A stretch of 64,000 nt of DNA, taken from positions 47,758 through 111,757 of the forward strand of contig CANSAF010000003.1 of assembly GCA_947644645.1 (NCBI GenBank), in the 5' to 3' direction. The stretch is from an uncultured Sporosarcina sp. Its GTDB lineage: Bacteria; Bacillota; Bacilli; Bacillales_A; Planococcaceae. Positions 3,766-16,725 of the stretch are shown piece by piece; within the stretch, counting starts at the first letter, position 1; each line of letters begins with the position of its first letter. Below the pieces are notes generated by a model that ran no database searches, had not been told where the DNA came from, and saw nothing but the letters and a program-made list of their open reading frames with translations. Both the position numbers and the translations under genes were made by a program.

Positions 3766-5064
3766 TTGGTTTCAGTTATCACCGCATCATTAATTTTCAT
3801 AATTACACTTATTTTTGTCATTTGGCAACCTAGAAACTTATCAATTGGATGGTCTGCATGTATTGGTGCCGTAATCGCTTTGATAGTAGGCGTAGTTAAT
3901 TTTCAGGATGTCATAGATGTAACGGGGATTGTATGGAATGCAACGCTTGCTTTTGTTGCAATCATTATTATTTCATTAATCTTAGACGAAATTGGATTTT
4001 TCGAATGGTCTGCCCTTCATATGGCTAGATTGGCTAAAGGCAGTGGGATTCGGATGTTCGTTTATGTCAGTCTTTTAGGTGCAGTCGTTGCTGCTTTATT
4101 TGCAAACGATGGTGCTGCCTTAATCCTAACGCCAATTGTTTTGGCAATGGTACGAAATTTGAATTTCAGTGAAAAGATGATTTTTCCATTCATCATTGCC
4201 AGTGGTTTTATTGCAGATACGACTTCGTTGCCATTAGTTGTGAGTAACTTGGTCAATATTGTATCAGCAGACTTTTTCGGCATCGGATTTGTTGAGTATG
4301 CATCTCGGATGATAGTTCCCAATTTATTTGCTTTAGTTGCGAGTATTTTAGTACTGTTTTTATTCTTCCGTAAGGATATCCCGAAAGACTATAAAGTATC
4401 AGATCTAAAAGAACCGAAGGATGCTATTAAAGATATAAAGTTGTTTCGACTAGCTTGGGTAATTTTAGGCGTGTTACTCGTGGGCTATTTCTCTAGTGAA
4501 TTTACAGGATTGCCTGTATCTATTATTGCTGGGATTACAGCCATCTTCTTTATGCTTATGGCACAAAGAAGTCCCGCTGTTCACACGAAGCAAGTAATTA
4601 AAGGTGCACCTTGGGCTATTGTTTTCTTCTCTGTCGGCATGTATGTAGTCGTTTATGGCTTGCGCAATGCGGGTTTGACAAGTGTGTTGGCAGATGTCAT
4701 TCAAATGGCAGCCAATCAAGGGCTCTTTGTAGCGACGATTTCGATGGGCTTTATCGCGGCAATCTTATCATCCATTATGAATAATATGCCTACTGTTATG
4801 ATTAACGCTTTAGCCATATCAGAAACAACTACAACAGGACCGATTCGCGAAGCTCTAATTTATGCAAATGTCATTGGGTCGGATTTAGGTCCAAAAATCA
4901 CACCAATCGGTTCCTTGGCCACTTTATTGTGGTTGCATGTACTGTCTCAAAAAGATGTGAAAATCTCATGGGGTAGCTATTTTAAAATCGGTATCATCTT
5001 AACAGTTCCTACACTCCTGATTACACTAATCGGGCTGTATGTATGGCTGTCATTCATACAATAA
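3766..5064 (+). CDS. arsB: Arsenite efflux pump ArsB
   Basis: Integral membrane protein of 432 aa in the ArsB/NhaD family, the usual length of ArsB, with about 12 membrane segments. It exports As(III)/Sb(III) alone or energised by ArsA. Family landmarks include the [17 protein letters not shown] stretch near residue 110 and the [16 protein letters not shown] stretch near residue 340. The start is TTG at 3766 behind GGAGGAG, 15 bases after arsR. Because arsA and arsD are present, an ATP-driven ArsAB pump is likely. Confidence 0.95.
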
Positions 5065-5967: not shown

Positions 5968-7740
5968 ATGTATCCATTATTCAATCCAAACAAAACCGTA
6001 CTAACTCCATTTTTGTTTTTTACCGGAAAAGGTGGTGTTGGTAAGACATCAACGGCCTGTGCGACAGCGGTTTCTCTTGCCGATCAAGGAAAAAAAGTAC
6101 TTTTAGTAAGTACCGATCCTGCTTCAAATTTACAAGATGTTCTCGATGTAGAATTGACGAATGATCCAATAGCTATTCCAAGTGTAAAAAATTTATTTGC
6201 TTGCAATATTGACCCGGAAGCATCAGCGAAAACATACCGTGAAAAGGTTGTCGGTCCTTATCGGGGTAAGTTGCCGGATGCTGTTCTCACAACTATGGAA
6301 GAACAGTTATCTGGTGCTTGCACAGTTGAAATTGCTGCATTTGATGAGTTTTCTCATCTGTTAACCGATGAAGATGTGTTAAATCAATATGATCATGTAT
6401 TGTTTGACACTGCGCCGACTGGGCACACACTACGTTTGTTACAATTACCAACAGCGTGGACCGGATTTTTAGAAGAAAGTACACACGGTGCTTCCTGTTT
6501 AGGTCCATTGTCAGGTCTTGGAGAGAAAAAAGAGTTGTATGCGAAAGCAGTCGAGTCACTATCTAATCCAGAAAAAACGACGTTAATTTTGGTTTCCCGT
6601 CCGGATATATCTTCTTTAGTTGAAGCGAATCGGGCCTACTCTGAGCTGAAAGATATCGGTATTAAAAATCAGCTACTTATTATAAACGGGCTTCTTCAAA
6701 CTCATCGGCCTGATGATGACGTGTCAAAAGCGTTTTATGAGCGACAACGCAACGCACTGAAAGAAACGCCTGAAGCTTTAAAGCAGGTTGTGACGTTCTC
6801 TCTTCCATTCGTTTCATATTCATTAACGGGAGTTGATAACCTCCGGCACTTATTTAGTTCTTACACGATTACTGAATTTGTAAATGACAGCCTCGGAAAA
6901 GAAGCTATTCAGCTTCCAGGCTTAAACAAAGTAATTGATGATTTTTCATCGAAAAACATACGTGTAATCTTCACAATGGGTAAAGGTGGGGTTGGTAAAA
7001 CATCCATTGCATCTGCAATTGCGGTTGGCCTTTCTGAGAAAGGTCATCGCGTTCATTTGACTACAACAGACCCAGCAGCTCATCTTGCGTACACATTTGA
7101 AGATAGTGCTTTGAAAGAGAATCTGACGATTAGCAGTATTAATCCAGAGGTTGAAGTCGAAAAGTACCAGCAGGAGGTGCTTTCTACGGCAGGGGAAGGG
7201 CTGGATGAAGAAGGTCTAGCGTATTTGAAAGAAGATCTAGAATCACCATGTACAGAAGAAATTGCTTTGTTCAGAGCCTTTGCAGAAGTAGTTGAGAAGT
7301 CGGAAAATGAAATTGTTGTAATTGATACAGCACCGACCGGCCACACATTGTTATTGCTTGATTCAACGGAAGCGTATCACAAAGAAATGAGCCGTTCGAC
7401 TGGTGATGTACCAGAAAGTGTGAAGAAGCTTCTTCCACGTTTGCGAAATCCAGAAGAAACTGGAGTGGTTATTGTTGCATTGGCTGAGGCCACACCGGTT
7501 TTAGAAGCCGCTCGATTACAGGAAGACCTCAAACGTGCAAAGATTGATCCGAAATGGTGGGTCATCAATCAAAGCCTGTACGCAACGGATACTACAGATC
7601 CCATTTTGAAAGGGCGTGCAGTTTCTGAAATAGAGTGGATTAAAAAAGTGAAAGAAGACTTAGCACCACAGTGTGCAGTAATCCCATGGTTGCATGAAGA
7701 GAAAATTGGTTACGACAAATTGAAAGAATTTATTCTATAA
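5968..7740 (+). CDS. arsA: Arsenite-stimulated ATPase ArsA
   Basis: Soluble ATPase that drives ArsB. The 590-aa protein is the classic tandem duplication. The first half has Walker A GKGGVGKT at about residue 20 and DTAPTGHTLR near 148; the second half has GKGGVGKT from about residue 339 and a second DTAPTGHT. Cysteines that bind As(III) in ArsA are present: C118 (GACTVE), C177 (GASCLGP) and C428 (SPCTEE). It stands between arsD and the thioredoxin reductase gene, and the five genes from arsD to 9462 are closely spaced in one direction. Confidence 0.96.
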   Translation: MYPLFNPNKTVLTPFLFFTGKGGVGKTSTACATAVSLADQGKKVLLVSTDPASNLQDVLDVELTNDPIAIPSVKNLFACNIDPEASAKTYREKVVGPYRGKLPDAVLTTMEEQLSGACTVEIAAFDEFSHLLTDEDVLNQYDHVLFDTAPTGHTLRLLQLPTAWTGFLEESTHGASCLGPLSGLGEKKELYAKAVESLSNPEKTTLILVSRPDISSLVEANRAYSELKDIGIKNQLLIINGLLQTHRPDDDVSKAFYERQRNALKETPEALKQVVTFSLPFVSYSLTGVDNLRHLFSSYTITEFVNDSLGKEAIQLPGLNKVIDDFSSKNIRVIFTMGKGGVGKTSIASAIAVGLSEKGHRVHLTTTDPAAHLAYTFEDSALKENLTISSINPEVEVEKYQQEVLSTAGEGLDEEGLAYLKEDLESPCTEEIALFRAFAEVVEKSENEIVVIDTAPTGHTLLLLDSTEAYHKEMSRSTGDVPESVKKLLPRLRNPEETGVVIVALAEATPVLEAARLQEDLKRAKIDPKWWVINQSLYATDTTDPILKGRAVSEIEWIKKVKEDLAPQCAVIPWLHEEKIGYDKLKEFIL

Positions 7741-10903: not shown

Positions 10904-11163
10904 AGAAGTAGTTCCGAAAATTTCAATGATGTTGTGTTTAGCCATGGATTTTGTTAAAGTGAATGTATATATTTTATGTTATTAAGTCACTGATCTAATG
11001 GTGAAAGTCGTTACACTTTTTGCATATGCAGAAAGAGATTCGGCACAAATTTTCAGCCTTTGGATTCCTTATTCACAGGAGAAGTTAGGCAGACGTATTC
11101 GACGTCCATAAATTGCTTTTGCATATCAGAAGAGATACTTACGCATTTTGCGTGAACTATATT

Positions 11164-11202
11164 AAAACCGATTTTTCCTATTCAGGAAAGGTCGGTTTTT
11201 TG
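11164..11202 (+). terminator. Rho-independent terminator
   Basis: AAAACCGA pairs with TCGGTTTT, extended by TTTTTCCT/AGGAAAGG with G-U pairs, and ends in a run of six T. No gene ends just upstream; the nearest is 260 bases away. Confidence 0.8.
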
Positions 11203-11215
11203 CTTTCAAAAAGAT

Positions 11216-11272
11216 ATTGAAAGGAGATGGAAGCGGATTTATTGAAAGGAGATGGAAGCGGATTTATTGAAA
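11216..11272 (+). repeat. 25-bp tandem duplication carrying a Shine-Dalgarno-like core
   Basis: Two exact 25-base copies at 11216-11240 and 11241-11265 each begin ATTGAAAGGAGATGG, and the first seven bases recur a third time. Each copy contains AAGGAGATGG, but no open frame follows. Confidence 0.9.
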
Positions 11273-11294
11273 TCGAACAAATTGGGTTATTTTA

Positions 11295-11338
11295 AAATGC
11301 ATTTACTTAGCAATCGCTAGGTACAAATGCGTTTTTTT
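11295..11338 (+). promoter_or_regulatory. Leader hairpin before the 297-aa gene
   Basis: AAATGCATTT (11295-11304) pairs with AAATGCGTTT (11325-11334), and the inner arms ACTTAGC/GCTAGGT extend the stem. It ends in a seven-T run, so it is terminator-shaped. It stands 40 bases before the first gene of the MoxR-VWA cassette and could be an attenuator or the end of an upstream transcript. Confidence 0.6.
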
Positions 11339-11376
11339 ATTTATCTAAAATACAAAACTAGAAAGGGTTGTTAGGT

Positions 11377-12270
11377 ATGTCAATTAATCTTGATAATATG
11401 ACGGCTGTTCAAAACCAACAGCAAGACGGTATTTTAGGTCACTTGATGTGGTTCTCTGTAGGCAAGCAATTAGTCAAAATGGATGATTTAGAACGGGGAC
11501 TTGTTCAATCAGGATTACCTGTTGAGTGGATGCCAAATGCAATTCGTCCAGCAGATGCTTTCCGAAGAAGTACGAAGGAGATTGAGACTAGAAAATCTAC
11601 TGGACACGCTGGTGTATTCGAGAACTTCCTTATACGTGAAGTGTTCTCTGACAAGAGCCACGTGCAAAGAAACATTGTGGTAGAAAAAGTGGATCAGGCC
11701 GGTAAACGACTTGATTACAACAGTAAAGCGGGAGTAATCACGCTAGATAAGCAGAATAGTTCTTTAACGTTTATAACAGAGAACGAAATTGCAAAAGAGT
11801 TGTGTTATGAAGCAGAGCGAAATTTCAATATTTATAAAGACCATTATTCAGCCCAGCAAGTAAGAGTAATGGTGAGTAAAATACTTCAATCGCTAGCACC
11901 CACACCTGTGCGTCCTAATGGCGGTGTTTATTTTGTTCCAGATTCACATACGGAAGGGTTGAATCAACTTGTAAACTTTACGTCCTCTCTTGAGAACAGT
12001 GAAGGGTTCAAGATACCCGTCGTTAATACATTCGACAACCGACAAATGGTGAACACGAAGCTAAATGATCATTTGGAATCCATTTTACAGGATTGTAAGT
12101 CGAGTGATGGGCTGAAAAAGGGACAAGTGAAAGAGATTATTGAAAATGCGAAGTCTGTTATTTCCAACTATCGTAATTACAAAGGCATTGTCGCCAATGA
12201 AGCAGATACGCTAGAGAATAAAATCATGACGATTCGTGCTGCTGTTTCGAAAATGGTAGCGGATCTTTAA
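11377..12270 (+). CDS. Protein of unknown function, first gene of the MoxR-VWA cassette
   Basis: A 297-aa soluble protein with no signal peptide or membrane segment. I do not recognise a catalytic motif; it may belong to the family listed as DUF6744, which I cannot confirm. The N-terminal half is mixed and hydrophilic (WFSVGKQLVKMDDLERGL, WMPNAIRPADAFRRST). The last 80 residues look helical (LNDHLESILQDCKS, LENKIMTIRAAVSKMV). The ATG at 11377 sits nine bases after GAAAGGG. Three codirectional genes follow with short gaps, so it is likely a partner or client of the AAA+/VWA pair. Confidence 0.8.
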   Translation: MSINLDNMTAVQNQQQDGILGHLMWFSVGKQLVKMDDLERGLVQSGLPVEWMPNAIRPADAFRRSTKEIETRKSTGHAGVFENFLIREVFSDKSHVQRNIVVEKVDQAGKRLDYNSKAGVITLDKQNSSLTFITENEIAKELCYEAERNFNIYKDHYSAQQVRVMVSKILQSLAPTPVRPNGGVYFVPDSHTEGLNQLVNFTSSLENSEGFKIPVVNTFDNRQMVNTKLNDHLESILQDCKSSDGLKKGQVKEIIENAKSVISNYRNYKGIVANEADTLENKIMTIRAAVSKMVADL

Positions 12271-12295
12271 AAAGTAACGGAATGGAGAGATTAAA

Positions 12296-12490
12296 ATGAC
12301 AGAATTTTATCAAACGATAATGGGAAGAAAATTCTATGAAAGAGATGTTGTTGATTGTGTGCAACACGTTAAGATGATTGCTCAAGAACTCGAACGTTCA
12401 AATGAATTGAAAGAACAGGAGTTGCAGATGAAGATGCGTGAGTTATCGATAAAAGAACAAGAATTATTTATTCTTTCAGCGAAAAACTAA
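12296..12490 (+). CDS. 64-aa coiled-coil protein of the MoxR-VWA cassette
   Basis: A small charged protein. The N terminus reads FYQTIMGRKFYERDVVDCVQH, followed by a Glu/Lys-rich helix (residues 26-60) with heptad spacing that should form a coiled coil. GGAGAG lies ahead of the ATG at 12296. It is 25 bases from the preceding gene and 82 from the ATPase gene. It has no enzymatic motif and could be an adaptor. The function is unknown. Confidence 0.7.
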   Translation: MTEFYQTIMGRKFYERDVVDCVQHVKMIAQELERSNELKEQELQMKMRELSIKEQELFILSAKN

Positions 12491-12500
12491 AATGATTCTT

Positions 12501-12547
12501 GAAAGGGGGAGTAGGGTTTCATTAGAAGCCTGCTTCCCTTTTCTATC
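12501..12547 (+). promoter_or_regulatory. Hairpin between the 64-aa gene and moxR
   Basis: GAAAGGGGGAGTAGGGTTTC (12501-12520) can pair with the segment ending TGCTTCCCTTTTC (to 12543), with several G-U pairs, and is followed by a pyrimidine-rich stretch. It may be an attenuator or processing site inside the operon. Confidence 0.5.
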
Positions 12548-12572
12548 TAAACTAAAAAAGGGGTTAATCAAA

Positions 12573-13739
12573 ATGACAAACACTAATTTTACCAAGTTAG
12601 AGGAAATTAAAAAGGCGCTCAATGCGAAGTTTTTTGAACGCAAGGATGAAGTTGAGGGGATTCTTGTTGCTCTACTTTCTAGGCAGCATATGTTGATGAT
12701 TGGACCTGCCGGAACCGCGAAATCGGCATTGTCTGTAGAGTTAGCCAAGATTGTACAGGGAACAAATTATTTTCAATGGTTGCTAACAAGGTTCAGTACA
12801 CCCGAAGAAGTTTTTGGTCCTTTGTCGTTAAAAGATCTTGAACAGGGCGTGTACAAGAGGAATACAGCAACTAAAATGCCGGAAGCCAATCTCGTATTTT
12901 TAGATGAGATATTTAAAGCAAATTCAGCAATCCTAAATAGTTTGCTAACGCTTATAAACGAAAGGCTATTCTATAATAACGGGACACCTGTAAAGGTTCC
13001 TTTGATGTCAGTCATTGGAGCCTCAAATGAATACCCGGAAGAAGGAGAAGGGCTTGAAGCTCTTTTCGACAGATTCTTACTTCGATTCGAACTAGATTAT
13101 ATTGCAGATGAAACGAATTTTGTTTCGATGATGAAGGGCACCGGTCAAAATTTTGTTATGCCTTCTATGACAATGGATGAGTTGGTTCAACTTCAGTTTT
13201 TTACTGACATGGTTACAATTCCTGATGAAGTCTATGACACGCTTTCAAAAATCCGTAATGAATTACGTGATGAAGGAATCCGTCCATCTGACAGAAGATT
13301 TAAACAGTCGCTCTCAGTGCTTCAGGCGAAGGCTTTGATAAACCAAAGACAAGTTGTGAAAGTTGATGATATTGTCATTCTTGAAAATGCACTATGGGAA
13401 ACAGTTGATCAAAAGGATAACGTTTCTTTGATTGTTCGTAGCCACGCACAAGATGTGGTTACTCAAAAACTAGATAGGGTTCAGGAAGAGGCGAGTGAAA
13501 TATATTCACTTATTCAGAAGGATGCCTCTACTGATGCTGGTATGGAAGCGACTCAAAAACTGAAATCGTTGGTTGCAGATTTAAATAAGTTGAAAAAGCA
13601 TAATCAAAGTAGGGATGGGGATATAGATCCGCTGCTCGATAAAGTGAAGGCGATTCAGCAAGAGGTTCTTGATAGTATTTTAGAGCCAATGGATATTGAT
13701 ACTTCAAGTACAAAATCTGCTGTTGAAATGCCGTTTTAA
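12573..13739 (+). CDS. MoxR/RavA-type AAA+ ATPase
   Basis: A 388-aa ATPase with Walker A GPAGTAKS (G44-S51), Walker B LVFLDEIF (D111/E112), a sensor-1 region around SVIGASNEYPEEGEG, an arginine-finger stretch FDRFLLRFEL and a C-terminal lid followed by a long helical tail. MoxR proteins remodel partner complexes, usually with a VWA protein encoded next door, as here. The ATG at 12573 behind AAAAAGGGG is preferred to an in-frame ATG at 12492 with no ribosome site. The 110-residue tail is predicted helical and could contact the VWA partner. Confidence 0.92.
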   Translation: MTNTNFTKLEEIKKALNAKFFERKDEVEGILVALLSRQHMLMIGPAGTAKSALSVELAKIVQGTNYFQWLLTRFSTPEEVFGPLSLKDLEQGVYKRNTATKMPEANLVFLDEIFKANSAILNSLLTLINERLFYNNGTPVKVPLMSVIGASNEYPEEGEGLEALFDRFLLRFELDYIADETNFVSMMKGTGQNFVMPSMTMDELVQLQFFTDMVTIPDEVYDTLSKIRNELRDEGIRPSDRRFKQSLSVLQAKALINQRQVVKVDDIVILENALWETVDQKDNVSLIVRSHAQDVVTQKLDRVQEEASEIYSLIQKDASTDAGMEATQKLKSLVADLNKLKKHNQSRDGDIDPLLDKVKAIQQEVLDSILEPMDIDTSSTKSAVEMPF

Positions 13740-13758
13740 GCGTAAAAATCGGAAGTTG

Positions 13759-13790
13759 AAAGCCACGGAATTAATCCTTGGCTTTTTATT
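13759..13790 (+). terminator. Intra-operon terminator-like hairpin between moxR and the VWA gene
   Basis: AAAGCCA (13759-13765) pairs with TGGCTTT (13779-13785), extended by GGA/TCC after one mismatch, and ends in five T. It would lower expression of the VWA gene relative to the ATPase. Confidence 0.6.
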
Positions 13791-13816
13791 CATTCAAATG
13801 AAGGGAAGTGTTTCTT

Positions 13817-15265
13817 TTGAAACCAGCAAAAGCTAAAGTGAAAAGTGGAAATCAATCTGTGTTGAATACAGATGCATTTGATAAAAGGCGTTTTAACGAA
13901 ATTTATTCTATGTCGCAAAGTCTTCAAAAGCTAAAAGTTGATGGAGAATTACCTACATTTGAGCCGTTGCTCGCTGATATTTGGGCATCGTTATACAAAA
14001 TGAAGCCTGAATTGAGTGAAGATGATATTCCCGATGATTTGCAAGTGAACAAATCATTTATGGAAAAAATCATGAATGATGACTCGTTTGAAAGTTACCG
14101 GAAATATACCCGACTGGATGATTTATCATCAGCCATAGGAACTGTTAAATTTGGAGAGAAAACAAAAGAATGGTTAGCTGAACAAAAAGGCAGAGATGAA
14201 GACCTAGAAAAGAAAATGCAGGAAATTCAGGCAATGCAAAGGCAACTTCAAAAGCAGGACCGACAAAATAGGGCTGGTAAAGGTAGTGAGGAGTTACAAG
14301 AAGACTTAAAAGATGCAATGTCAGACTTAGGAAGTCAGCTTCATCAGACATTGCAAAACAACAGTCATAGCTTTTCAGAAGCGATGTCACAAGCTATGCA
14401 GGAAACGAAACAGGCGAAGGATAGCTTGAAATCATTAGTTGGAGGCACGAGTGCAGGTAGTGGTGACGCAGAACTGAAAAAAGTTCCTTTACGAGATCAA
14501 ATTTCATTAGTTGAAAAAATTGCATCAGATAAACAGATGAAAGAAATTGCGGATTGGGCTGGTCGATTCAAACAGATAGCCCGTAAAAAGCAAAAATCTA
14601 AACATAGTGATTCAATGGAAAGAAGTGGGGTTACGCTTGGCAACGATATTGAGCGATTGTTACCGATGGAGTTAGGTCTGTATACACATCCAATAACGAA
14701 GAACGATTTCCTACGTCGCTTTGTGGAAGGCCAAACGATGCAATATGAACAGAAAGGACATGAGGTACTAGGGAAAGGTCCAATTGTGCTTTGTCTGGAT
14801 CAATCAGGTAGTATGCACAAGCTCGATACCAAATCAAAAGGATTTACGTTAGCACTCATGTCGATTGCAAGAAAACAGAAAAGGGATTTTTGTTTAATCC
14901 TGTTTTCTACTCGTACACAAATCTTTAAATATGAAAGAGGGAAAATAAAAAGTTCAGATATGATCAATTTAGCTCAAACTTTCCTAGGTGGAGGTACGGA
15001 CTTTACACTTCCTCTTGAAAGAGCGATGAATGTAATAAACGAAAGTCGTTTTAAACAAGCTGATTTAGTTTTTATTACAGATGGGGAGGACAAAGTACAA
15101 GATTCGTTTCTTGAGTCGTTCAATAAAAAGAAAAAAGAAAAGAACTGTAATGTATTATCCCTTACGATAGGAAGTAATATAAAAACAGTTAACCAGTTTT
15201 CAGACAAGGTCGTACAAGTTAAAGATTTTGATGACGTAGGAAGTTTTACTGCGTTTGAAATATAA
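13817..15265 (+). CDS. VWA-domain protein with intact MIDAS (ViaA/CoxE-like)
   Basis: A 482-aa partner for the MoxR ATPase. The N-terminal 300 residues are helical with a Gln/Lys-rich coiled coil near 120-155 (KKMQEIQAMQRQLQKQDRQN). The C-terminal von Willebrand A domain has a complete metal site: D328-S330-S332 in DQSGSM, T394 in GGGTDF and D422 in FITDGED. It probably binds Mg2+ and a target protein under control of the ATPase. Start TTG at 13817, about eight bases after GGGAAGTG. Order and domains recall RavA-ViaA and CoxD-CoxE pairs, but the first two genes of this cassette do not occur in those. Confidence 0.9.
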   Translation: MKPAKAKVKSGNQSVLNTDAFDKRRFNEIYSMSQSLQKLKVDGELPTFEPLLADIWASLYKMKPELSEDDIPDDLQVNKSFMEKIMNDDSFESYRKYTRLDDLSSAIGTVKFGEKTKEWLAEQKGRDEDLEKKMQEIQAMQRQLQKQDRQNRAGKGSEELQEDLKDAMSDLGSQLHQTLQNNSHSFSEAMSQAMQETKQAKDSLKSLVGGTSAGSGDAELKKVPLRDQISLVEKIASDKQMKEIADWAGRFKQIARKKQKSKHSDSMERSGVTLGNDIERLLPMELGLYTHPITKNDFLRRFVEGQTMQYEQKGHEVLGKGPIVLCLDQSGSMHKLDTKSKGFTLALMSIARKQKRDFCLILFSTRTQIFKYERGKIKSSDMINLAQTFLGGGTDFTLPLERAMNVINESRFKQADLVFITDGEDKVQDSFLESFNKKKKEKNCNVLSLTIGSNIKTVNQFSDKVVQVKDFDDVGSFTAFEI

Positions 15266-15386
15266 AGTAAAAACTAGAGGCTTACATTTACAGCAACGAG
15301 TTCGGCTTTGGTATCCGGTGAGAATATACCACTAAGAATTTAAATGTTTTATTTTTCAATAACTAATCAAAAAATAAATAGCATAC

Positions 15387-15419
15387 AAAAAGCTCAGACT
15401 TAAATCTGAGCTTTTTTTT
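15387..15419 (+). terminator. Terminator after the MoxR-VWA cassette
   Basis: A 12-bp stem (15387-15398 with 15405-15416) holding AGCTCAGA/TCTGAGCT precedes a long T run. It marks the end of the cassette transcript. Confidence 0.9.
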
Positions 15420-16013: not shown

Positions 16014-16051
16014 TCTCGAAAAAAATGTACTATTCTATTGTTAATGCTTTT

Positions 16052-16080
16052 TTGATTCTTTCAATTTGAGCCTATATAAT
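16052..16080 (+). promoter_or_regulatory. Sigma-A type promoter for the 65-aa gene
   Basis: TTGATT (16052-16057) and TATAAT (16075-16080) are separated by 17 bases, about 20 bases before an AGAGGTGG ribosome site. Confidence 0.75.
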
Positions 16081-16115
16081 AGAAGGAACAGATCTTATCG
16101 AAAGAGGTGGCATGT

Positions 16116-16313
16116 ATGGCGATTATAATACCTTTCAAAACTAGACACCAATTAGAAACAGAAAAAGCGGTTAAAGTTATGCGTGATTGGGAAGCACATT
16201 TAGAATGGGAAGAAGCGAATTGGCATAATGTAATTGCTAGAGAAGAAAAAGAAGATCCCTTGTCACAAGAAGAAATTAACTGGCTTAATAATTGGCTTAG
16301 TGAAGAAAAATAA
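16116..16313 (+). CDS. Small charged protein of unknown function
   Basis: A 65-aa acidic, Trp-rich polypeptide (five Trp residues, many Glu/Lys) with no signal peptide. The ATG at 16116 follows AGAGGTGG and a good promoter lies upstream, so expression is likely. I recognise no family. It stands alone between the hydrolase gene and the housekeeping block. Confidence 0.6.
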   Translation: MAIIIPFKTRHQLETEKAVKVMRDWEAHLEWEEANWHNVIAREEKEDPLSQEEINWLNNWLSEEK

Positions 16314-16725
16314 TAAACGTGGAAGTTATTAAATAGAAGCTGAACTATTTATGTGTTTTAACATGTTTTGGAAAAATTCAAAACAAAGAATGCAATTTGA
16401 AACCATATTTATTTAGCAGCTGATTGCCGAATGTTTTAGGAAGATATTAGCATAAAAAAGTGTTTACTCTGTCAAAAGAGTAAACGGCTAAAATGCACAA
16501 TAAAATGATTATGCACAAATTATACACAATCATTGCCGGAAGTATTGTACCTAAAGTATCCATAGGCGATAAAAGAAACCGGCCTCGGGTATCTAAAAAA
16601 ATTACAGCGTTGATGAATGTTTAAAACATTTATCAACGCTGTTTTAGTATGTTTACGCATCTTAACTAAAGAACGGCAAGAAAGCCTTATACAGACTATC
16701 TTGCGGGTTTCTTTCTATGAAAGAA
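16314..16725. other. Gene-free spacer with two hairpins
   Basis: This 412-base stretch has no supported gene. It contains a 9-bp hairpin (GTTTACTCT/AGAGTAAAC, 16462-16485) without a T tail and the long terminator at 16604-16645. It probably marks the join between accessory DNA and the core chromosome. Confidence 0.5.
16604..16645. terminator. Long terminator hairpin
   Basis: ACAGCGTTGATGAATGTTT (16604-16622) pairs with its near-perfect complement ending at 16642, with one G-U pair, then TTTT. Minus-strand reading also gives a T-rich tail, so it could stop either strand. Confidence 0.8.

Follow-up and report, generated by a model that had tools for sequence, protein, structure and literature searches.

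Here, we have analysed a four-gene cassette in a 64,000-nucleotide stretch of DNA from an uncultured Sporosarcina sp. (contig CANSAF010000003.1, positions 47,758 to 111,757; the window). The cassette codes for a DUF6744 protein, a small protein of 64 aa, a MoxR-type AAA+ ATPase and a VWA protein. Our results, obtained by sequence comparison, show that DUF6744 stays next to a RavA-type MoxR-VWA pair in bacteria and archaea, on plasmids and in phages, that the genes are under purifying selection, and that Sporosarcina pairs without DUF6744 nest among those that have it. We tentatively propose, with a confidence somewhat short of even, that mobile elements carry these proteins as a three-protein AAA+ remodelling machine, in which DUF6744 would serve as adaptor or substrate and the 64-aa protein, in some Bacilli, as a helper. 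Loci other than the window are cited by L numbers, and genomes by G numbers.

DUF6744 and its MoxR-VWA partners

The four open reading frames (ORFs) are codirectional, in the order DUF6744, 64-aa protein, MoxR and VWA, as the earlier note on this DNA had described:

11377-12270, + strand, DUF6744 gene: 297 aa; PF20529, E 8.4e-75; proposed third partner
12296-12490, + strand, small-protein gene: 64 aa; FYxTxxGrkFYE family
12573-13739, + strand, RavA-type MoxR AAA+ ATPase gene: 388 aa from ATG; the mechanical ORF opens at 12492
13817-15265, + strand, ViaA-like VWA co-chaperone gene: 482 aa from a TTG start, or 485 aa from a GTG at 13808
15387-15416, + strand, closing intrinsic terminator: -15 kcal/mol, z -5.0

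Purifying selection acts on all four genes. With ten Sporosarcina copies compared (24 of 45 comparisons usable per gene), the median dN/dS is 0.056 for DUF6744, 0.082 for the 64-aa protein, 0.054 for MoxR and 0.115 for VWA, and these low values argue that the ORFs are real genes and not chance. The 297-aa protein, earlier taken as unknown, was assigned by profile search to the Pfam family DUF6744 (PF20529), with 252 bits against a cut-off of 27 over residues 4-292. Sequence search found no solved relatives of DUF6744; its profile matches to solved proteins (best E 0.016) are mostly helical or coiled-coil in look and were not believed. A viral scan with the single window protein (P0001) gave no relatives.

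The MoxR protein matches AAA_5 (6.5e-26), AAA_lid_8 (2.3e-17) and bpMoxR (4.3e-57), and its closest solved relative is RavA (phmmer, 1e-55). The bpMoxR match was considered as a sign of a beta-propeller ternary system and rejected, since E. coli RavA itself scores 1.5e-56. The VWA protein matches VWA_2 (3.6e-7) and ViaA (NF008230, 4.7e-23) and has no solved relative at E 0.01. As had been described, the Walker motifs of MoxR are intact (GPAGTAKS at residue 44, VFLDE at 108) and the MIDAS of the VWA protein is complete (D328-x-S330-x-S332, T394 and D422 in the 482-aa numbering). The Walker A variant is kept in 60 of 61 linked sets, and the D.S.S and [TS]DG motifs each in 53 of 54; strict patterns for Walker B and the MIDAS threonine match 40/54 and 16/54, so that these two elements are shown for the window proteins only.

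Altogether 104 loci were examined for DUF6744 (D), MoxR (M) and VWA (V) genes. Scans for DUF6744 gave 61 genome loci and 14 viral loci, and 15 plasmid records and one phage record carry it, eight of the plasmids and the phage having been fetched. L061 lacks DUF6744, and 15 copies or close relatives were set aside, which left 88 DUF6744 loci; among these one Ureibacillus locus still counts twice (L048, L089), and L059 and L060 are the same stretch. A RavA-type MoxR and a VWA gene lie beside DUF6744, all on the same strand, in 61 of the 88, in the orders D-M-V (48), M-V-D (11) and M-D-V (2); the 61 include L054, L098, L100 and L113, in which the VWA gene is cut or split. The earlier note had asked whether the 297-aa gene usually lies away from the MoxR-VWA pair: it is found together with the pair in this majority, and 11 of the 27 remaining loci lie on short contigs or are truncated where the fetched stretch ends (among them L122, which has a piece of a VWA gene 9.5 kb away). 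The linked sets span Bacillota, Actinomycetota plasmids, archaeal contigs from metagenome-assembled genomes (L129, L133), plasmids, phage and viral contigs. In 54 loci the D, M and V protein distances correlate with r 0.92-0.94, a value reached in none of 2000 permutations for each pair.

The other unlinked loci are of several kinds. An insertion sequence breaks the set in Ureibacillus (L048/L089). DUF6744 lies near an AAA gene and a DUF2201 metallopeptidase-VWA gene in L055 (11410-14732, a same-phylum genome) and in viral L144 (6704-9353), and near an AAA and a CobT-like VWA gene in viral contig L146 (4501-9218); by its presence near these other AAA-VWA pairs, DUF6744 seems to outlive a change of motor. 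Only an AAA gene of the non-RavA pair type is present in L145 and L150, and only MoxR in L116; L128 has a split VWA gene, with MoxR not close. DUF6744 itself is truncated in L050, L056 and L136, and the MoxR-VWA pair is intact in L050. The family is infrequent: it was detected in 9 of 200 host-family genomes and in 14 of 398 genomes of the phylum (12 above the cut-off, own genome included).

The proposal that the first two genes define a distinct MoxR-VWA type holds for DUF6744 but not for the 64-aa protein, which is confined to some Bacilli. Among the loci examined, iterated profile search found its homologues in Sporosarcina, Siminovitchia, Oceanobacillus, Gracilibacillus, Halobacillus and Ureibacillus, and in all of these but the interrupted Ureibacillus locus the gene stands between those for DUF6744 and MoxR. 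Matches to the 64-aa protein occur in 5 of 151 host-family genomes and 14 of 72,556 plasmid records, 13 of these 14 being from Listeria. In the Listeria plasmid pCFSAN074383 (L260:7001-8134) a related small gene abuts a 945-bp MoxR gene, near IS6 and CopY, and neither a DUF6744 nor a VWA gene is annotated in the 14-kb stretch; a MoxR 60% identical is also present in 13 Listeria plasmid records. The 64-aa protein thus looks like a MoxR-tied helper of some Bacilli, outside the general core.

Probable loss of DUF6744 within Sporosarcina

A match to the window MoxR (P0003) is found in 60 of 61 Sporosarcina genomes, many only distant, and the window genome itself holds a second MoxR-VWA pair (L063, 54% identical). 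Among 20 strong-match stretches DUF6744 is intact in 5, lacking in 14 and a relic in 1, a proportion that carries no meaning because the stretches were chosen partly for lacking DUF6744. In a maximum-likelihood tree of 87 MoxR proteins (61 labelled as DUF6744-linked, one of them with a truncated copy), 16 Sporosarcina pairs without intact DUF6744 nest inside the DUF6744-linked clade, in four groups (support 100/98, 100/96). In genome G614 a decayed DUF6744 gene (L219:5475-6236) lies directly upstream of an intact MoxR-VWA pair, and the pair locus L222 keeps a 49-bp remnant of the cassette leader. Repeated loss of DUF6744 is the simplest reading; some lineages may have re-acquired it.

Purifying selection still acts on MoxR in the pairs (dN/dS 0.113; 18 of 55 comparisons usable), so that in such hosts the motor seems to be functional even when DUF6744 is absent. 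This bears on the suggestion that the 297-aa protein may be the client of the motor: with DUF6744 repeatedly lost and MoxR-VWA intact, a role as adaptor or regulator explains the data no less well. Since DUF6744 was lost without loss of the pair, an adaptor would be weakly preferred to a sole client.

Deeper in the same tree, long or weak branches place E. coli RavA and clostridial-type pairs (L232-L238, L240) among the DUF6744-linked rows. These pairs, from the same phylum, are RavA-type, lack DUF6744 and form their own clade; the gene after them looks by eye like a PHP-type phosphoesterase.

The portable block and its terminator-like hairpins

In Sporosarcina the cassette and its non-coding leader form a portable unit, with the following features:

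10943-15306, + strand, portable cassette block of about 4.3 kb: homologous in other Sporosarcina while most flanks differ
10943-11376, + strand, conserved non-coding leader: 79% mean column identity, six sequences
11164-11199, + strand, hairpin T1 in the leader, terminator-like (hairpin scan)
11294-11335, + strand, hairpin T2, terminator-like: -17.6 kcal/mol; ends 41 nt before the DUF6744 start
12505-12539, + strand, hairpin T3, terminator-like: -20.5 kcal/mol; ends 33 nt before the MoxR start
13760-13784, + strand, hairpin T4, terminator-like: -10.4 kcal/mol; ends 32 nt before the VWA start

A blastn comparison of the window aligned L042 (10940-15273), L043 (10943-15306) and L044 (10949-15281) at 84-87% identity, and L045 and L047 (~10970-15270) and L046 (11289-15123) at ~69%. 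Some flanking genes recur, such as the merA region (L042, L043) and, in L042 and L044, a short gene near 16050-16340. Genome G598, a single contig of 3.98 Mb, carries two copies of the cassette, one near merA and the other near arsA. Neither a recombinase nor convincing end repeats that would explain the portability of the block were found. By blastn, the leader matches Sporosarcina cassettes, the L222 remnant and, weakly, Siminovitchia L085. A perfect 25-bp tandem duplication in the leader (11215-11264) is present in the window copy and absent from ten aligned relatives.

It had been stated that one strong terminator closes the cassette; the terminator is there, but terminator-like hairpins also occur at the four further sites listed above. 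In seven Sporosarcina cassettes a hairpin is found 21-42 nt upstream of DUF6744 (7/7), MoxR (7/7) and VWA (6/7), and an extra one 147-177 nt upstream of DUF6744 (7/7). The conserved hairpins before the three genes carry U-tracts, and in the leader both sides changed in 9 of 40 predicted pairs (11 sequences). The 15 two-gene pairs have none before VWA, and before MoxR two weak ones within 60 nt and five more 74-196 nt upstream. A stricter detector, applied to six Sporosarcina cassettes, gave 3/4 for MoxR and 1/6 for VWA, and the earliest one, which was too strict, placed a hairpin before 16 of 82 DUF6744 starts.

Outside Sporosarcina, the replacement detector found a hairpin before 21/42 DUF6744 starts in D-M-V and 1/11 in M-V-D loci. 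A hairpin that precedes the first gene of a set may also serve to terminate the gene ahead of it. In the D-M-V loci it found one before 23/49 MoxR and 12/48 VWA starts, and before 68/571 other genes. When the control genes are matched for intergenic space, the excess shrinks (MoxR and VWA together 26/52 vs 41/199 same-strand genes; DUF6744 12/29 vs 50/261), and in M-V-D loci this test gave 0/11 for D, M and V starts. Overall, the excess outside the genus is two- to four-fold in D-M-V loci and is not seen in M-V-D loci. Three matches to RNA families between 10850 and 15600 all lie far below the gathering scores. These putative terminators hint at control by attenuation or antitermination. Gram-positive conjugation operons have internal terminators with antitermination (PMC8955417), and the pLS20 operons described there likewise have terminator-like hairpins between the genes of a codirectional set; in pLS20, termination is read through, whereas here the hairpins are putative terminators and no antiterminator was identified, none having been searched for.

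A proposed remodelling machine of mobile elements and its alternatives

According to PMC7159879, a MoxR-VWA couple probably holds its substrate peptide at the MIDAS and uses ATP to reshape it; for NorQ-NorD, cryo-EM supports a hexamer whose pore is entered by a VWA finger (PMC13036017, PMC9976466). On the model of NorQ-NorD and RavA-ViaA, the MoxR of our cassette would form an ATP-driven hexamer, on which the VWA protein would dock and grip its partner through the MIDAS site. DUF6744 would be a dedicated adaptor or substrate that ties the motor to its target; we assign it this role because no other protein was found to accompany the couple in different phyla, and because DUF6744 occurs near motors of other types as well. 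We infer, as most likely target, a nucleoprotein complex for the replication, recombination or segregation of large plasmids, integrative elements and big phages. In Sporosarcina the machine may have turned into a stand-alone cassette, mostly in metal-resistance islands, several lineages having dropped DUF6744 and kept the motor pair.

Carriers of DUF6744 include the Moorella phage MTATph1, 15 plasmid records and 14 viral contigs. Among 90 loci the recurrent neighbour clusters are RadC (15), DUF6094 (10), SSB (8), DnaN (7), helicase (6), integrase (6) and CHC2 primase (5), with DUF4258 and resolvases as further ones; each was named via one Pfam-scanned representative, and DnaN by annotation. 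A C-terminal HARE-HTH domain (E 2.6e-6) is fused to DUF6744 in viral contig L150 (9743-10858), a possible link to DNA. Parts of the records of two Brevibacillus plasmids show ParM, DUF87 and secretion-family ATPases, CpaB-type pilus genes and a tyrosine recombinase, and one of the two has a TraM-recognition protein. In the 16.9-kb stretch of the Moorella phage, the named neighbours are ribonucleotide reductase and a Holliday junction resolvase. In L099 a GmrSD_N (DUF262) gene directly follows VWA (14272-15261), and the same cluster occurs in seven more loci.

Several observations weigh against a DNA-directed machine of this kind. The neighbours are ordinary mobile-element genes, which suggest a DNA target but fall short of proof; only 1 of 52 DUF6744 proteins has the HARE-HTH fusion; and both fetched Brevibacillus plasmids were typed as non-mobilizable. 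L024, L059, L060 and L127 have no AAA-VWA pair within the DUF6744 locus; outside it, a VWA match occurs on the L024 plasmid and on the L059 contig, and none for L127. Finally, DUF6744 is dispensable in the Sporosarcina pairs.

Four other explanations were considered. DUF6744 and MoxR-VWA could act in host defence or in counter-defence of the element, in the manner of the MoxR-vWA ternary conflict systems (PMC7159879), which also combine MoxR, VWA and a third conserved protein; the patchy presence in genomes, the carriage by plasmids and phages and the stand-alone ~4.3-kb block in changing flanks would agree with this. However, Pfam recognised no effector domain in the four proteins and none of the four published third components (VMAP, iSTAND, FtsH or beta-propeller), PADLOC matches are only weak (best 2.5e-4), and DUF6744 is strongly conserved, not hypervariable, within Sporosarcina, where variability was compared. 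The defence option raised in the earlier note is thus, in our opinion, unlikely. The set could also be a host chaperone for stress or respiration similar to E. coli RavA-ViaA, travelling on mobile elements with DUF6744 as its regulator. The two share a RavA-type AAA+ core and lid, a ViaA-like VWA gene directly downstream and a Walker A with A before K (GPPGIAKS in RavA, GPAGTAKS here), and the purifying selection on Sporosarcina pairs without DUF6744 fits such a role. Yet the LARA and RavA C-terminal domains are not found in the window MoxR up to E 1, E. coli RavA showing both with the same library, and the NCBIfam equivalog cut-offs are missed by far (228 of 681 bits for RavA, 82 of 500 for ViaA). 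DUF6744 as third partner and the carriage by phages and plasmids also set our system apart, this carriage suggests service to the element, and we judge a host chaperone to be decidedly unlikely.

The metal context of the cassette raises a further possibility, a chaperone that matures or repairs a metalloprotein or aids metal resistance, like CoxD-CoxE or NorQ-NorD. The DNA upstream of the cassette contains merA (269-1909) and a cluster of ars genes, among them ArsB (3766-5064) and ArsA (5968-7740); merA, ArsA and the small ars genes were named by eye from the sequence. More genes follow up to 10903, one of them for a pyridine nucleotide-disulphide oxidoreductase. Genes of the mer, cop or ars type occur near 11 of 12 Sporosarcina cassettes (two genomes give two cassettes each) and near 2 of 15 Sporosarcina pairs without DUF6744, with a nominal Fisher p of 7e-5 that overstates the link, the loci being related and the stretches unequal in length (window 30 kb, cassettes 14-19.5 kb, pairs 13-14 kb). 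The earlier idea of a metal-related function therefore has this local link in its favour, but beyond Sporosarcina none of 22 tested DUF6744 loci matched the mer/cop/ars queries, and the metals differ between cassettes (Hg, Cu, As). L049, from outside the genus, has a CsoR-family regulator and a sulfurtransferase, and matched only the sulfurtransferase query taken from L049 itself. No client metalloenzyme was recognised in the neighbour clusters common to several genera, several representatives of which have no Pfam match and others were unscanned, and a multicopper oxidase recurs in Sporosarcina only. NorQ-NorD and CoxD-CoxE share with our set the working model of a MoxR hexamer with a VWA partner; unlike them, it has no recognised metalloenzyme client next door, and the window MoxR has no CbbQ_C match. 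The metal genes are the island context of the cassette, and a metal chaperone seems very improbable to us. We are equally sceptical of a chaperone for virion or pilus assembly, as proposed for Acidianus two-tailed virus and group 2.2 jumbo phages. It has a published precedent for MoxR-vWA (PMC7824862), and the set is present in a phage and viral contigs; but the named Moorella phage neighbours are not structural genes, and the annotation of the plasmid stretches read around DUF6744 lists neither capsid nor terminase nor tail genes, although many genes there are hypothetical and one record is unannotated.

A parallel to the proposed remodelling machine is found on large plasmids of Proteobacteria, where an AAA gene, a VWA gene and an uncharacterised third protein, DUF3150, occur near recombination genes (pCAR1, an IncC plasmid and related ones). 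In pCAR1 (L062:8203-12341) the AAA, DUF3150 and VWA genes stand in a row; its MoxR and VWA have been reported, and the DUF name is not given in the part of that paper available (PMC2642839). DUF3150 is present on 1118 of 72,556 plasmid records, 969 of the 1118 being typed as conjugative. Of six DUF3150 regions, pCAR1 included, a VWA-type gene follows closely in 5, and an annotated AAA gene lies within 5 kb before in all 6. Unlike ours, the pCAR1 ATPase, the only one scanned, is of the CbbQ/NorQ type, and DUF3150 is not detectably homologous to DUF6744: homology was rejected on hhalign probabilities of 0.4, 0.2 and 0.7%, and a GG-x-(Y/F)-x-V-P-like motif seen by eye was not counted. A viral scan with a DUF3150 protein gave no relatives.

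A full-text search covering part of the literature found no paper naming DUF6744 or DUF3150, or Sporosarcina with MoxR. Of the MoxR-VWA papers listed, none describes a DUF6744-MoxR-VWA set in its title or abstract opening, nor do the available parts of PMC7824862 and PMC10910872. A bolder reading, to which we give a probability only just below even, would be that DUF6744 defines a fifth MoxR-VWA ternary class, carried by plasmids, integrative elements, large phages and archaea, as an adaptor for at least three kinds of AAA-VWA motor, that DUF3150 is its independent proteobacterial counterpart, and that some hosts have domesticated the machine by loss of the adaptor.

What would such a machine mean for the elements that carry it? 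MoxR-VWA couples are widespread, and their known clients are few. A third partner conserved across plasmids, phages, bacteria and archaea offers a handle on the use that mobile elements make of MoxR-VWA, and the natural losses of DUF6744 in Sporosarcina allow the motor to be compared in the presence and in the absence of its partner. The DUF3150 parallel would extend this to the IncC plasmid and many others, with a similar gene set near recombination genes. If the bolder reading is correct, mobile elements would share an undescribed and widespread remodelling step.

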